Shown here in pieces: positions 12,810 through 19,854 of a DNA stretch of 64,000 nucleotides; positions within the stretch are counted from its first letter, which is position 1; each line of letters starts with the position of its first letter. This stretch comes from a bacterium (lineage in GTDB: Bacteria > Zhuqueibacterota > Zhuqueibacteria > Residuimicrobiales > Krinioviventaceae). The stretch lies in the NCBI GenBank assembly GCA_029561455.1, contig JAKQIY010000030.1, positions 248,001 through 312,000 of the forward strand. The letters are read 5' to 3'. The translations under genes were made by a program, and so were the position numbers. A model generated the notes under the pieces. The model ran no database searches. It saw only the letters and a program-made list of their open reading frames with translations, and was not told where the DNA came from.

Positions 12810-14648
12810 TTATTTTTGTATGTATAATTCCCGTTGGCGGTTTTTCAAGTCATTTACATTAAACCAGGCCTGATACCATGCTTTGCTTTCATGACTCAGA
12901 TCGTCAAGAATTAATGTTTCCTTGTTGGTTTTTTCCGCTGCTGATTTCTCTTTGATTTCTTTATTGCGCCAGTGAAAATGATCGACGAGCCTTAACGCTT
13001 CAATGGCAAATACGGTAACAATATCATCATCGTGAATTTCTAACAGGTTATCGCCATTTTTCTGTTCAGGAGAAAATGCCAGATTACTGCTGCCGCAATA
13101 GACTACCGGGTCTTTACCTTTAAAATTCACGACAATGAACTTGTGATGGATAGCATAACCGTCGATCCCTGCGACCTTGCCAAAAGGTTCGGGCAGTGTG
13201 TTTTCAATACCTTTGGCGGCAACCCGTAATCCTTTTAAAGAATTGGGTTTATATAAAAATACGCTGTAATCATCCTTTTTGCTAATGCTGTCCGTTATGC
13301 CATAGGTAAAGACCTGATCGTTTTTTACCTGTTGTTTTACTGCATCCAGTATTGAACTTTTACTGGTATCTTTCATAATGGCAAAGAGAATATCGGTATT
13401 ATCCGGTTCCAGAATGCGATTTTTTATACGGTTAAATATTCGATCTGCGGCATCCTTTGGGTGTGGCGCAAATGTTATTGTCATTTCGGGAATGGCAGCT
13501 TCTTTAAAGATAAAGTCATTAGTTGAATATTTTGAGCCTTTAAAAGTTTTCATTTTTGCGACGCCGAAAGATTCATCAAATACCTCATTGTATAATTGTG
13601 CAACATTTTCATTATTGATAATGAGTACATGATTGCTATTAATATACAAGCCGTTGGTGGAGAAATTGGTCGAGCCGGTCAGTACTTTTACCCCCTTGTT
13701 AGCCTTAATTTGTATAAATACTTTACAATGCGCCATGCTGAAAAATTTGCCTCTTTGCAGGTCGTTACTGTTTGCCGCGAATTGTGTGAATTTATCAGCA
13801 AAGGTTGATTCCATCGAATCATTGTCGCCATGTTTGCCGCTATTATCCAGTATCATTTTTAACCTGTTTTGCCCGGCAAGAACCAGCAGACGTTTGCATA
13901 TTTCCGGTTCGTTCAAATCATATGTAAATGCTTTTAAAGAAAGACTGTTATCGTTGATTACCTGATCAAGAAATTCAATAATACGCTGCCTGGCCTGCCA
14001 GCCCAGCCACTTGTGTTGTTCTTCAAATGTATAATCGACCTCATAATCGCTGTTGGTCGCATAATTATGACGTTTGGCCGTATCCGCTTTTTGAGTGATG
14101 TCAAAAAGCAAACTATCCTGACCGGCCGGCGGTCTAACCCGGTTATTGTTAACATTAAAACGCTCCGCATAGGCTACCGATGATACGAATCCCCGCGTAA
14201 ATCCGATTTTGGTATTTTTCATATCAAAAGGACCGACGTTGATCGTTACACTAACAGTGAGATTTTCATCAAGGCGAAGCAGCCGGCCATTTTGAATATA
14301 ACGGGGGGTGACCTTGTACTCATAATCGCCAAATACTGCAGTTTGGGTATCGATATCTGTACTTGGTACATGCACCCAGTTGAACTTTTGAATTGGTGAA
14401 TATAAAGTGGAGTTTTTATAATTTTTATCCGGGATATCGGGATTGTTCTTTAGAAAGGCAGCCGAAAAAGTGAGCCGATTATAGATCGAGCGCAGTTTGC
14501 CGTTTTCTTCATTTTTGTATCTGAACCGGATTGTAAAACCGGCAAGATTGGTACGCAGTTCTTTTTTAACATCAAAGGCCAGCAATGTCATGGCGTCTCC
14601 CTTGTATGCCCTGACCTTGACGCCATTGTTTTCATTAGCAACTTCCAT
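12810..14648 (-). CDS. Phospholipase D-like (two-HKD) protein with novel N-terminal region
   Basis: A 612-residue soluble protein with no signal peptide. Two HKD-type half-sites are visible: H307-x-K309 in MAHCKVF, followed by GSTNFS (325-330), and H501-x-K503 in HHKFIVV, followed by CGSSNLAFS (518-526). Two half-sites in one chain make one PLD active site, as in phosphodiesterases, nucleases and lipases of the superfamily. Residues 1-200 are beta-rich and unrecognised. Substrate cannot be told; PLD-like nucleases do occur in defence loci, and a toxin-antitoxin pair and the AT-rich nuclease-like gene lie just upstream on the map. GGAGG precedes the ATG. Confidence 0.82.
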   Translation of the reverse strand: MEVANENNGVKVRAYKGDAMTLLAFDVKKELRTNLAGFTIRFRYKNEENGKLRSIYNRLTFSAAFLKNNPDIPDKNYKNSTLYSPIQKFNWVHVPSTDIDTQTAVFGDYEYKVTPRYIQNGRLLRLDENLTVSVTINVGPFDMKNTKIGFTRGFVSSVAYAERFNVNNNRVRPPAGQDSLLFDITQKADTAKRHNYATNSDYEVDYTFEEQHKWLGWQARQRIIEFLDQVINDNSLSLKAFTYDLNEPEICKRLLVLAGQNRLKMILDNSGKHGDNDSMESTFADKFTQFAANSNDLQRGKFFSMAHCKVFIQIKANKGVKVLTGSTNFSTNGLYINSNHVLIINNENVAQLYNEVFDESFGVAKMKTFKGSKYSTNDFIFKEAAIPEMTITFAPHPKDAADRIFNRIKNRILEPDNTDILFAIMKDTSKSSILDAVKQQVKNDQVFTYGITDSISKKDDYSVFLYKPNSLKGLRVAAKGIENTLPEPFGKVAGIDGYAIHHKFIVVNFKGKDPVVYCGSSNLAFSPEQKNGDNLLEIHDDDIVTVFAIEALRLVDHFHWRNKEIKEKSAAEKTNKETLILDDLSHESKAWYQAWFNVNDLKNRQRELYIQK

Positions 14649-15094: not shown

Positions 15095-15418
15095 TTATCG
15101 TAATAATCTTTTTTGTAATAAATCCTGCAAATCCCGGCGGCCGTCCAGGATACAATGCACATATACTCTGTCGGTAATAATTTGGTAGATAATTCGGTAG
15201 GGTTTGTAATGTATTTCCTTGTATTCAAAAACACCGATCCGTCCCAACTCGGGAGGAGTATGACCCCGTTGAGCAAAATCCGCCAGGCTTTGGCAAGTTG
15301 TTTGAAGGTTCGCTAATAGTTGTTCCGCTTTGACCCGCGAATCGTGTTTTACCACATATTTGAACAGATCAACAAGATCACGCTCCGCATCGGCAATAAT
15401 GTATATTTTGTAACTCAT
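15095..15418 (-). CDS. Type II toxin, RelE/ParE family
   Basis: 107 residues of the RelE/ParE fold: MSYKIYIIADAERDLVDLFK start, a helical middle, then the strand pattern YKEIHYKPYRIIYQIITD and YVHCILDGRRD that closes the fold. RelE toxins cut mRNA on the ribosome, whereas ParE toxins poison gyrase; the C-terminal GRRDLQDLL fits the ParE-like group, but I cannot decide. The start lies 2 bp after the antitoxin stop, the standard antitoxin-first arrangement, so the pair is one operon read leftwards. Confidence 0.9.
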   Translation of the reverse strand: MSYKIYIIADAERDLVDLFKYVVKHDSRVKAEQLLANLQTTCQSLADFAQRGHTPPELGRIGVFEYKEIHYKPYRIIYQIITDRVYVHCILDGRRDLQDLLQKRLLR

Positions 15419-15420
15419 TA

Positions 15421-15705
15421 TTATTCTTGTTCATCCGGCTTTACTGTCGTACGCACATCATTAAAGGATTGAGAGAGTTCCTTATAATTACCATCCTTTA
15501 AATTTTTGGCGCTAATGGCTAGAATTTTTAACAATGCCAGGCTTTCCTGCGTTTCTTCAAAAATTTTAATATCCTGCAGAACAGCTTTAGCTTCACCGTT
15601 TTGTGTGATGATGAGGGTTTTTTGATTATTGGCAATATCCCTTACAATTTCCGATGCGTGCGCCTTTAAATAGCTGATTGGTTTTACGCTTTCACTTGCT
15701 TTCAT
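15421..15705 (-). CDS. Type II antitoxin, Phd/YefM family
   Basis: 94 residues with the Phd/YefM DNA-binding N-terminus (SVKPISYLKAHASEIVRDIA, then KTLIITQNGEAKAVLQDI). The charged C-terminal tail would wrap the toxin. It precedes the RelE/ParE-like toxin by 2 bp and should repress its own operon together with the toxin. A strong GGAGG Shine-Dalgarno lies 6 bases before the ATG. Confidence 0.92.
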   Translation of the reverse strand: MKASESVKPISYLKAHASEIVRDIANNQKTLIITQNGEAKAVLQDIKIFEETQESLALLKILAISAKNLKDGNYKELSQSFNDVRTTVKPDEQE

Positions 15706-16005: not shown

Positions 16006-19000
16006 ATGAATGCAAAGGATAAAAATTATTTATTACTTCAATTTAGAGATAAAATTTTCACAAAGAATGGAACTGAATACCAAACTTTTTTTGAAAATAT
16101 TATGGAAAAAACTTACCCTGGTTTTCAAAGAATTCGACCTTATGGAAATAGGGGTGATGGAGGAAATGATGGTTTTAGAAGGAATTCAGGTATCTATTAT
16201 CAAATTTACGCACCACTTGAACCAAAAATTTATGAATCAAAAGCTGCAAAAAAAATGAAAGATAATTTTAAAACACTTATAATAGAATGGAATGATATTT
16301 CACCAATTATAGAATATAATTTTGTCTTTAATGATAAATATAATGGAACAACACATGATTTAGAAAGAGCATTATCTGAACTAAAAGAAAATAATCCTAG
16401 TATTCAATTTTCTCTTTTTTTGGCAAAGGATTTAGAACAAGTCTTTATTTCATTAGATGAAGATGTTATTTTAAATTTAGGTTTTGATATAGATTCGAGA
16501 AAATCAATTGCAAATGGTAGAAAATATTTAGAGAATGTGGAAGTAGAGCTTGATAGAGAAAATGCAAGAATTGCTTTAAAAATATTAGAAAATTGTAAGG
16601 ACATCATTCATAATTTAAATAATGATGATTTAATATTGGAATATGAAATATTAGAATGCAGATGTTTACAAAAGTTAGAACAAATTGATAAGATAAAAGA
16701 AAAATATGAGAATATTTCTATTCGTTATCCGAAAGATCCACGGCCATTATTGTTTTTAGCAGAAATTTATTTATTTAATAAAGAATTTGATAAAAACCGA
16801 GAATTATTAGACAATGCTGCCCAAATTGATAATAATCATTGGTTATATTTATTAGAAGAATTAATTAGGAAAGATCATTTAGGTGAAAATGTTGATATTT
16901 CAACTATTAATGAGAAAATATTTCCTGATAATTCAAGAATAAAAGCAAGTTTTTATCGTTTATATGCAATTTTATTAAATCATTCTGGAGATTATGAAAA
17001 AGCTTGTTATTTTATTGAAACAGCTATCCATTTGAATCCTGAGGGCTATAAAAATTATAGTACCAAATTATCAATTTTTGAAATTAATATGATTTCTAAA
17101 CTCAACAATTCTCAAAAAATAATTCTAACTCAACAATTTTTAAATGAGATAGAAAAAGTTGAAAAAAAGTTTTCCGAATTTGGAGATATTCTACCTAGAA
17201 ATCAAGCATTTCTAAATTTGAAAAAATTGAATTCTTACTATCTACAAGATAATATAAAAGAAATGACAATTATAACCCAAAGAACTTTCGAGTTGATATT
17301 TGAATGTTACTTTGATAATTTAATCGATCAACTTATAGTTAAGTTAATTAGTTCCAGTGAGTTACCAAATCTTTCTTTTAATCGGTTATTGATTTATTTA
17401 AAAAATTCAAATAATAACATTTCAGATGAACTTGCCAAGGAACTTGTTATCCAATTTAATTTAAGAAATAGTCTTGTAATGGATGGAACCAAATTCTTTA
17501 AGGAGATTAATAAACTACGATTTGTAAAATTAATCGAAGATATTTCTTGTAAAAATTATGAAAGCATAATCAAATTTATAGATAGAGATATTAAGTTTGC
17601 AGTTAATATTGTTAATTTATTTAAAAATTTTCCTGATTTAAGAAGGAAAATACTTGATACCCTACCTGATAATAAAAATATTCAAAAAAACAAGTTAAAA
17701 CTATTATGCAATTATGATGAAGGTAATTTTGAAACTGCATTTAAAATATTGCACGAAATTGATTTTACAAATATGCATTTCTTTGAATGCAAACAGTATT
17801 TGAAGATTGCACAGAAAATGAAAGCATGGGATTATGAAGTAATTATTTTGGATAAACTCATTGAAAAGGAAAAAGATGAAAAAGAAATATTCTATTTAAA
17901 GTTACAATTATCTAATGCTTATTATAGGTCAAAACAATATATAAGAAGTATTGATATAGGTGAAGAATTATTAAAAATAGATTTACACAAAAAAATATTA
18001 AGTACAAAAAATAAAGAAATACTTCTTAGTCAAACAATTCAATCTTGTTTGGAAAGAGGTAACATTGATGATAAATTTTTAAAAAAAGCTCAGCAAGTGT
18101 ATGAAATGCTTAAGTTTCCAGAATCTTCTTTTGAATTTAAAGTCGATATTGTCGCTTATTTGTATCTATATAATAACGAACCACAAAAGGCTTTGGATTC
18201 TATAATTGAGGGTATAAAAATAAGAAAAAGATTGACTCCAGTAGAATATGCAAAGTTATATTTTATTTTATTTTTACAAATTGGGAAACAAATTAAATAT
18301 AATTATGATTCATTAACAAAAGTTGAGGATAATACATTTATTAAATTAAAAAATAATGATTATTGGTTATTTATTGGTGATGATAATGAATTAGATGCAA
18401 TAAAAATAGAAAAAAAATCACCAAAGTATTTTCAATTTATAAATCATCAACTTGGTGAAAAAAAATTTTTCGATGATATATCATATTCAGAATGCCATGA
18501 AGATGTAATAGAGTATATTTTTACGATTGAAAAATATGTATTATGGCAATGTTATCAAAATTTTCAAAAACTAGCAAAAGCCAATTTTCTAGATGGAGTA
18601 AAAATGGTTGAAGTACCTGATAAAGAGGGTACTATTGATCTGCATTACTTATCTAACTATTTTGAAGATTTGGATAGGAAAAGAAGGCCAATTTTTGAAA
18701 TGTATTGTAAAAACAAAATTCCATTAGCTGCACTAACTATTAGTGAAGGTAGTCTTTTAAATGCAATCGGTAAGATACAAAATGAAAATCATGGTTTTAT
18801 TAATTCTAGCACAGGGTCAATAGATGAGTTTCAAAAACAAAAAAATATTATCAGCAAAATAATTAATGAAAAATGTTCATTTTATATTGATGGTACCTCT
18901 GCACTGTTTTTATCAGAAATTGGTCTTATAAAAACAATTTATACTTTTATCCAAAATATTAAAGTACCAAATTCAGTTATTAGTTTTTTGTTAGGTGTTG

Positions 19001-19854
19001 CAGAAAAGTTTAATCCAAGAGAACAAATAACTGGGTTTTTAGGATATACAAAAGGAAAGTTTAAATTTTCACCTCTTGATAATAATAGATGTGATTTAGT
19101 TTATAATAATTTTTCAGAAAGCATTAGGTTGTTTGAATCAAAACCAGCAAATATTGGCATCATTTCTTTAGCTAATAAAGCTAATTGTTTATCAGAACAA
19201 AAAATTCCAGCCGAACTGTGTGATGCTTGTATACTAGCACAAAAAGAAAAAATACCAATTTTAACTGATGATTATTTATACTTGAAAATGAATGAATTAG
19301 AAACTAAGAAGAAACATCCAGACTATTTTTCTTCATTGGCATTAATAAGAGTACTCTATGAAGAAGGAAAAATACAGTTTAGTGAGTATTTAGATTATTT
19401 TTGCTATCTGTCATTTTATCGTTTTAGATTTTTATCTTTAAATTCAGATGATATTGAAAATGCCGTTTTTGGTGTTGGGAAAATTAGGACAATTAATCCT
19501 GAGAATATTAGAAAATTTAATTTTTCACTTACTTTATCTGAAGAATATGGCGTTTCATTTCAAAATGCATTTTCTGTTGTTGGGTTTTTTTTTCATAAAG
19601 TTCTTATTGACGATACAATTTCATTTGATGCTACTGAAAAAATTTTTATTGAATTAATTGAAACACTCCCCCAAAAGTTTGATAAGATAACATTAGGGCA
19701 GATTCTTTTGAGAGGATGTATTTTCCTTATTGAAAAAGAGTTACCTAATTTCATTCTTTATCCTAATAATTCAATTCTCTTACAGAAAATTGAAAAATTA
19801 TTAAAAATAATTGACTTGTATAAACCAAAAGCAAAATTGTGGGTCCCAAATTAA
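16006..19854 (+). CDS. Putative defence protein: Mrr-like nuclease fold, helical repeats, C-terminal PIN-like domain
   Basis: A 1282-residue protein in very AT-rich DNA unlike its neighbours. Residues about 18-160 resemble an Mrr-like PD-(D/E)xK module: E24, YGNRGDGGNDGF with D51/D55, then YYQIYAP, where Q-x-Y stands in the place of Q/E-x-K. Residues about 170-830 are mostly helical with TPR-like units (DYEKACYFIETAIHLNPEGY). Residues about 955-1100 look like a PIN nuclease: FYIDGTSALFL (D962), CDACILAQ (D1073) and ILTDDYLYL (D1088/D1089). There is no signal peptide or NTPase motif. I do not recognise a described system. Composition and neighbours (toxin-antitoxin, PLD) suggest transfer and a stand-alone defence role; that is inference. 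A GAGGA site lies 11 bases before the ATG. Confidence 0.7.
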   Translation: MNAKDKNYLLLQFRDKIFTKNGTEYQTFFENIMEKTYPGFQRIRPYGNRGDGGNDGFRRNSGIYYQIYAPLEPKIYESKAAKKMKDNFKTLIIEWNDISPIIEYNFVFNDKYNGTTHDLERALSELKENNPSIQFSLFLAKDLEQVFISLDEDVILNLGFDIDSRKSIANGRKYLENVEVELDRENARIALKILENCKDIIHNLNNDDLILEYEILECRCLQKLEQIDKIKEKYENISIRYPKDPRPLLFLAEIYLFNKEFDKNRELLDNAAQIDNNHWLYLLEELIRKDHLGENVDISTINEKIFPDNSRIKASFYRLYAILLNHSGDYEKACYFIETAIHLNPEGYKNYSTKLSIFEINMISKLNNSQKIILTQQFLNEIEKVEKKFSEFGDILPRNQAFLNLKKLNSYYLQDNIKEMTIITQRTFELIFECYFDNLIDQLIVKLISSSELPNLSFNRLLIYLKNSNNNISDELAKELVIQFNLRNSLVMDGTKFFKEINKLRFVKLIEDISCKNYESIIKFIDRDIKFAVNIVNLFKNFPDLRRKILDTLPDNKNIQKNKLKLLCNYDEGNFETAFKILHEIDFTNMHFFECKQYLKIAQKMKAWDYEVIILDKLIEKEKDEKEIFYLKLQLSNAYYRSKQYIRSIDIGEELLKIDLHKKILSTKNKEILLSQTIQSCLERGNIDDKFLKKAQQVYEMLKFPESSFEFKVDIVAYLYLYNNEPQKALDSIIEGIKIRKRLTPVEYAKLYFILFLQIGKQIKYNYDSLTKVEDNTFIKLKNNDYWLFIGDDNELDAIKIEKKSPKYFQFINHQLGEKKFFDDISYSECHEDVIEYIFTIEKYVLWQCYQNFQKLAKANFLDGVKMVEVPDKEGTIDLHYLSNYFEDLDRKRRPIFEMYCKNKIPLAALTISEGSLLNAIGKIQNENHGFINSSTGSIDEFQKQKNIISKIINEKCSFYIDGTSALFLSEIGLIKTIYTFIQNIKVPNSVISFLLGVAEKFNPREQITGFLGYTKGKFKFSPLDNNRCDLVYNNFSESIRLFESKPANIGIISLANKANCLSEQKIPAELCDACILAQKEKIPILTDDYLYLKMNELETKKKHPDYFSSLALIRVLYEEGKIQFSEYLDYFCYLSFYRFRFLSLNSDDIENAVFGVGKIRTINPENIRKFNFSLTLSEEYGVSFQNAFSVVGFFFHKVLIDDTISFDATEKIFIELIETLPQKFDKITLGQILLRGCIFLIEKELPNFILYPNNSILLQKIEKLLKIIDLYKPKAKLWVPN

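Follow-up and report, generated by a model that had tools for sequence, protein, structure and literature searches.

An AT-rich 1282-residue protein with REase-fold, TPR-like, GreA/B-C and PIN modules, assigned to the TPR-GreA/B-C-PIN conflict system

Introduction

The TPR-GreA/B-C-PIN conflict system was described from sequences by Kaur, Iyer, Burroughs and Aravind (eLife 2021, PMC8195603). Its archetype, Fischerella WP_017307658.1, carries an EAD10 N-terminus, the 13 swappable N-terminal effectors include REase and HNH domains, and its action on RNA polymerase is a published prediction (PMC8195603). No experimental study of the family, and no report of an activity or phage test, was found in the literature searched, and looking for the name GreAB-C-PIN or for defence at the polymerase channel turned up nothing more. 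A one-protein PIN system with a split PIN domain, DS-3 of DefensePredictor, is required for phage defence (PMC13092281). Here we analyse a gene in a 64,000-nucleotide stretch of bacterial DNA (the window) and compare it with these and other known systems.

Results

Gene and family assignment

The gene is a single intact open reading frame for 1282 aa, stop-free throughout, whose ATG is preceded by AGAGGAAATAAT. Its GC content is 0.248 and its GC3 0.15, against 0.425 across the 16 kb flank, in agreement with an initial annotation made from the sequence alone, which had described one long AT-rich frame unlike its neighbours in composition. The motifs quoted there are likewise present, namely GDGGNDG (residues 50-56), YYQIYAP (64-70), FYIDGTSALFL (from 959), CDACILAQ (1072-1079) and ILTDDYLYL (1085-1093). 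The frame is not a chance one, because its core is common to nine other genes, at 27-51% identity to the window protein, and seven full-length relatives score over the cut-off of Pfam family PF20698. The features of the gene are collected in Table 1.

Table 1. Features of the gene and its product, in window coordinates
Feature	Position	Strand	Basis
REase-TPR-GreA/B-C-PIN protein, 1282 aa	16006..19854	+	ORF; relatives
PD-(D/E)xK (REase) effector module, residues 1-165	16006..16500	+	AlphaFold2, VIA-align, PADLOC LmuA
GDGGNDG motif, residues 50-56; G50, D51, N54, D55, G56 invariant	16153..16173	+	17-member alignment
YYQIYAP strand, residues 64-70; Q66, P70 invariant; Y68 at Lys position of (E/Q)xK	16195..16215	+	17-member alignment, model
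K83, invariant, helix after QxY strand; candidate migrated catalytic lysine	16252..16254	+	alignment, model
Helical TPR-like region, residues about 166-760	16501..18285	+	TPR matches; relatives over Pfam cut-off
GreA/GreB C-terminal (FKBP-like) domain, residues 768-840	18307..18525	+	VIA-align, Foldseek, hhalign, alignment
Conserved, mostly helical linker with F(E)MYC..N.P motif, residues 841-949	18526..18852	+	alignment, model
PIN domain, residues 950-1126	18853..19383	+	VIA-align, PF20698
PIN acid D962; E only in Legionella HNH form	18889..18891	+	10-member alignment
PIN acid D1073, invariant	19222..19224	+	10-member alignment
T1087-x-D1089 motif, invariant; position 1088 usually E	19264..19272	+	10-member alignment
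C-terminal helical tail, residues 1127-1282	19384..19851	+	model

The gene is almost certainly a member of the TPR-GreA/B-C-PIN conflict system. Four family features were found: a PIN domain of PF20698, a GreA/B-C domain between the TPR region and the PIN domain, TPR repeats (weak in the window protein, over cut-off in relatives) and a variable effector on a constant core. The initial annotation knew of no described family with this order of domains; the order is nonetheless not new, since the published account already lists REase and HNH as N-terminal effectors (PMC8195603), and the single-gene habit that the annotation had proposed for a conflict system is also that of the published family.

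Relatives and effector swapping

Relatives were recovered with an N-terminal alignment and with a four-sequence PIN alignment. A single-sequence protein search of the genome and viral contigs and a search with a two-sequence core alignment found none, a PDB sequence search gave noise only, and NCBIfam yielded no family for the core. Seven full-length forms are headed by the REase module: the window protein and those of a viral contig (L008), a Bacillota MAG (L039), Anaerolineales (L040), Chloroflexi (L042), Acidobacteriota (L043) and Sulfidibacter (L045, a locus also represented by viral contig L009). HNH-headed forms are found in Parcubacteria (L044) and in the matching proteins of the Fluoribacter plasmid pLD-TEX-KL and Legionella bozemanae (P0002, L046), and one relative, L041, is a fragment. 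The REase forms are spread over Bacillota, Chloroflexota, Acidobacteriota, Sulfidibacter and a viral contig, the HNH forms over Legionella and Parcubacteria. In an unrooted tree of the core the two HNH forms group together and adjoin an REase form; support is moderate, at 76 and 67, and the pattern fits an effector swap. Judged by these sequences, the N-terminal effector, REase or HNH, is exchanged on one core.

The N-terminal REase module

The AlphaFold2 model of residues 1-165, built on a 17-sequence alignment (pLDDT 92.6), has the alpha-beta-beta-beta-alpha-beta core fold of PD-(D/E)xK nucleases with its elements in the expected order. VIA-align 2 ranks FokI (Z 10.3) highest, then EcoT38I (10.1) and the nuclease at the N-terminus of Avs4 (9.8); lower-ranking matches are further restriction and defence nucleases, among them Can2, Shedu, HamA, Cap4 and NucC. 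The Mrr-like fold first suggested for this end is thus upheld as an Mrr/FokI-like PD-(D/E)xK fold. Because the Foldseek E-values for the modelled parts (REase and GreA/B-C-PIN) are weak by themselves, none being below 0.001, our fold claims rest on VIA-align Z-scores, topology and conserved residues. The PADLOC model of LmuA, the Lamassu effector, matches the domain with an E-value of 2.8e-8, and 16 of the 17 members of the REase family score to it. The family also occurs as a Cupriavidus ABC-3C protein with a CTD10 tail (38.5% identity over 155 aa).

The 17-sequence alignment includes stand-alone phage genes and ABC-3C-like proteins, and across it G47, D51, N54, D55, Q66, P70, K83 and N109 are unvarying. 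The canonical D...(D/E/Q)xK set of PD-(D/E)xK nucleases is present in part: D55 and Q66 are there, but the strand reads Q-x-Y or Q-x-F, not Q-x-K, in every member. Y68 does stand at the lysine position, as the initial annotation had seen; its further suggestion that the domain is perhaps inactive for this reason is unproven. The Y/F is family-wide while D51, N54, D55, Q66 and K83 never vary, which suggests that the active site is kept, perhaps rearranged, and conservation of the whole unvarying set would be unexpected in a dead domain. K83, on the following helix, may supply the missing catalytic lysine.

The module was also seen in other settings. On a Salmonella plasmid (L005:5950-6777) its fusion partner is an Apea-like HEPN domain, matched below cut-off at E 3.6e-4; the gene, for a 275-aa protein of two putative nucleases, lies in an island with integrase, DUF4435 and AAA genes. 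In P2-like Klebsiella phages (L007:5977-7020; MK416018, OK490461 and others) it is joined to a tail of no known kind in a cargo gene between a virion-morphogenesis gene and a baseplate V gene, likely a phage-borne defence gene.

The TPR-like, GreA/B-C and PIN modules

The TPR matches of the window protein, at 227-281 and 317-346, are weak and below the Pfam cut-offs, and the relatives L039, L040 and L044 exceed the cut-off for families such as TPR_14, TPR_8 and TPR_19, so that at the level of sequence the TPR-like middle read from the window alone appears sound.

The initial annotation read three modules; residues 768-840 form a fourth. The model that covers them (pLDDT 82) aligns over this range with GreA/GreB 2pn0 of Nitrosomonas at a VIA-align Z of 8.9 and with Gfh1 3aoi at 8.2, and Foldseek gives a probability of 0.99-1.00. 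Against a GreA family drawn from the host and its relatives, hhalign returned a modest match (probability 57%, E 1e-4 in one comparison) over a short, expected stretch, and the GreA 'SPxGKAL' loop is kept only in part. Among the ten members aligned, the domain has the pattern F-x-K...W...L-x-A...Y, with F778, K780, W787, L796, A798 and Y808 invariant.

For residues 950-1126 the structural matches are PIN domains of VapC-type and eukaryotic proteins, with Z-scores of 9.2-9.3 for PAE2754 and VapC4, in support of the PIN-like fold that the initial annotation had read at the C-terminal end. All ten members of the core alignment match PF20698 (PIN-TPR-GreABC, 'PIN domain associated with the TPR-GreAB-C-PIN system'), the best at E 2.5e-16. 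The window protein aligns through all conserved positions and scores 18-22 bits, under the 27.8-bit cut-off, and its membership of PF20698 therefore rests on its relatives. PF20698 alone matched nothing in 82 genomes of the phylum, the window's own included, and is thus too narrow a profile for this member. In the ten-member alignment D962 is present in nine, D1073 and D1089 are invariant and E971 is nearly so. The catalytic set D962/D1073/D1088 named earlier accordingly stands for its first two residues; D1088 is E in most relatives, and the invariant acid is D1089.

Genomic setting

The ten neighbouring ORFs comprise FadL-like, TetR, 3-dmu-9 MT, PLDc, ParE, Phd/YefM, UxaE, nitroreductase and CDP-OH-PT genes and one ORF with no match, and the gene has on one side the Phd/YefM-ParE pair, encoded on the opposite strand, with metabolic genes on its other side. 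That antitoxin and toxin pair (15095-15705, minus strand) adjoins the gene as a separate unit. A PLD-type gene at 12810-14648 has a weak likeness to the NgoFVII restriction endonuclease, and no close relative of it was found in the 12 nearest genomes searched; the 12-20 kb stretch of the window may be a small accessory island. Of 79 genomes of the phylum, one has the gene under study, whereas its flanking genes are present in 21-22 of 22 relatives, where an attempted reconstruction of the empty site found them on separate contigs. No convincing element ends were found among repeats around the gene.

The setting of the gene family is mobile and appears defence-like. The Sulfidibacter copy (L045:1-12700) belongs to a prophage, where it is flanked by head-type and tail-sheath-type genes, and has 39% GC against 57% in its surroundings; that of L008 adjoins a tape-measure-like gene and serine recombinases, and that of L039 lies beside two serine recombinases, the phage and recombinase names in these three loci being our reading of translations, not database matches. 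A conjugative plasmid carries the L003 copy, with a recombinase and a TacA/GNAT pair next to it. Other neighbours are AbiEii (L043), RHH-DUF433/DUF5615 (L042), Phd/VapC (L040), and Fic and RloB/AAA_21 (L044), and of nine loci seven have the gene at a GC content 7-23 points below that of the flanking DNA. The survey of homologue neighbourhoods that the initial annotation had proposed thus finds copies carried by prophages and a plasmid, next to serine recombinases and close to toxin-antitoxin genes. Most related loci (L003, L040, L042, L043, L044) have toxin-antitoxin or abortive-type genes alongside. Downstream of the Parcubacteria HNH form is an RloB-like and AAA_21 pair (L044:9731-11479), with Fic upstream, a defence-like neighbourhood.

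Discussion

A model for the protein

Comparison of sequences and structures establishes the four modules, the swapping of the effector, the invariant REase and PIN acids and the carriage on mobile elements. The explanation that we favour, with a probability of roughly 0.6, is that of a horizontally acquired, stand-alone anti-phage or anti-element TPR-GreA/B-C-PIN protein with an REase-fold effector. In its favour, besides the modules and the published description, are the presence of the gene in a single genome of the phylum between near-universal genes, the copies on mobile elements, and an REase module that also occurs in LmuA-type effectors, in an ABC-3C protein and fused to HEPN. A role in defence is probable, and the protein is most likely of the abortive type, the abortive action being presumed. 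In the model, the GreA/B-C domain would dock on RNA polymerase, from the secondary-channel side, or on a complex carrying phage transcripts. The TPR region would keep the protein quiet and sense the docked state, after which the PIN domain would cut RNA and the REase domain DNA, in an order that we infer, and either infection would be stopped or the cell would die. Docking on the polymerase, for which the fold is our ground, is the tentative part, to which we give a little less than an even chance. A more elaborate form, in which the protein is a two-nuclease sentinel riding RNA polymerase through GreA/B-C, with PIN cutting transcripts of the hijacked polymerase and then triggering a DNA nuclease whose lysine has moved to K83, is speculative and in our judgement doubtful.

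If GreA/B-C is instead a reused ligand- or protein-binding fold, the TPR and GreA/B-C regions could sense a phage protein or metabolite directly and oligomerisation could activate the nucleases without RNA polymerase, the family and the defence role staying the same. TPR scaffolds usually bind partner proteins, the closest REase relatives (LmuA, ABC-3C) work with other sensors, and what the comparisons recover for GreA/B-C is its fold, not a known polymerase-binding surface. Against this, six positions of the domain are invariant in ten divergent members and the domain is kept in every one, which suggests one shared partner, and we hold direct sensing to be somewhat unlikely. It is also conceivable that the gene chiefly protects its carrier, by superinfection exclusion of a prophage or in plasmid competition, and not the host, a role compatible with our main explanation. 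The copies in the Sulfidibacter prophage with its head and tail genes, beside the tape-measure-like gene of L008 and on the Fluoribacter plasmid would agree with this; however, no phage or plasmid genes adjoin the gene in the window, L040, L042 or L043, and as the main role it seems distinctly unlikely.

The division of labour between the two ends bears on the remaining alternatives. The replacement of the (E/Q)xK lysine by Y or F in every member could mean that this end of the protein binds DNA but is catalytically dead and that PIN alone kills, yet none of D51, D55, Q66 and K83 varies in the 17 sequences, and relatives substitute an HNH nuclease domain, so that a nuclease effector seems to be required at this position; we consider a dead domain unlikely. 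Conversely, PIN might have a regulatory role or be degenerate, leaving the variable N-terminal domain as the only effector, given that the N-terminal domain is the part swapped and that D962 becomes E in the Legionella form. The invariance of D1073 and T1087-x-D1089 in all ten members, and of D962 in nine, speaks against this, which we judge improbable. The set of seven REase and two HNH forms on one core, some of them in prophages, is well suited to tests of effector swapping and of the active sites, and if the published prediction holds the family would be an immune system guarding RNA polymerase itself with a replaceable killing domain.

Comparison with known systems

VapC and other PIN toxins have the PIN fold and its acidic residues in common with the window protein, which differs in being large, multidomain and without a paired antitoxin. 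The fold and acids are shared with DS-3 too, a comparison made by description only. Avs4, a STAND NTPase with an Mrr-like N-terminal nuclease, resembles the window protein in being one large protein with a similar nuclease fold at its N-terminal end and in carrying a TPR-type sensor, as the window protein has a TPR-type region; the STAND NTPase was not found in the window protein, which has PIN and GreA/B-C domains instead. The effectors of Lamassu (LmuA) and ABC-3C have a homologous N-terminal REase module, and TPR-GreA/B-C-PIN takes the place of their C-terminal docking domain. No LmuB/SMC-like ATPase or middle component was found among the ten neighbouring ORFs. These include neither LmuB nor an ABC or antitoxin partner belonging to the gene, and we reject membership of the whole gene in Lamassu, ABC-3C or toxin-antitoxin systems. 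With GreA/GreB and Gfh1 the likeness is that of the C-terminal FKBP-like fold; their N-terminal coiled coil, which reaches the RNA-polymerase active site, is not seen here, and unlike them the domain is embedded within a 1282-aa protein.

To the published account of TPR-GreA/B-C-PIN this analysis adds support from predicted structures for three modules, the invariant residues, the kinship of the REase module to LmuA and ABC-3C effectors, and prophage carriage. In contrast to the archetype, the window member is chromosomal and AT-rich, has an LmuA/ABC-3C-type REase, and its PIN domain alone falls under the Pfam cut-off; it shares with the system the common module order, the single-gene habit, the swappable N-terminal effector and the rapidly evolving core.
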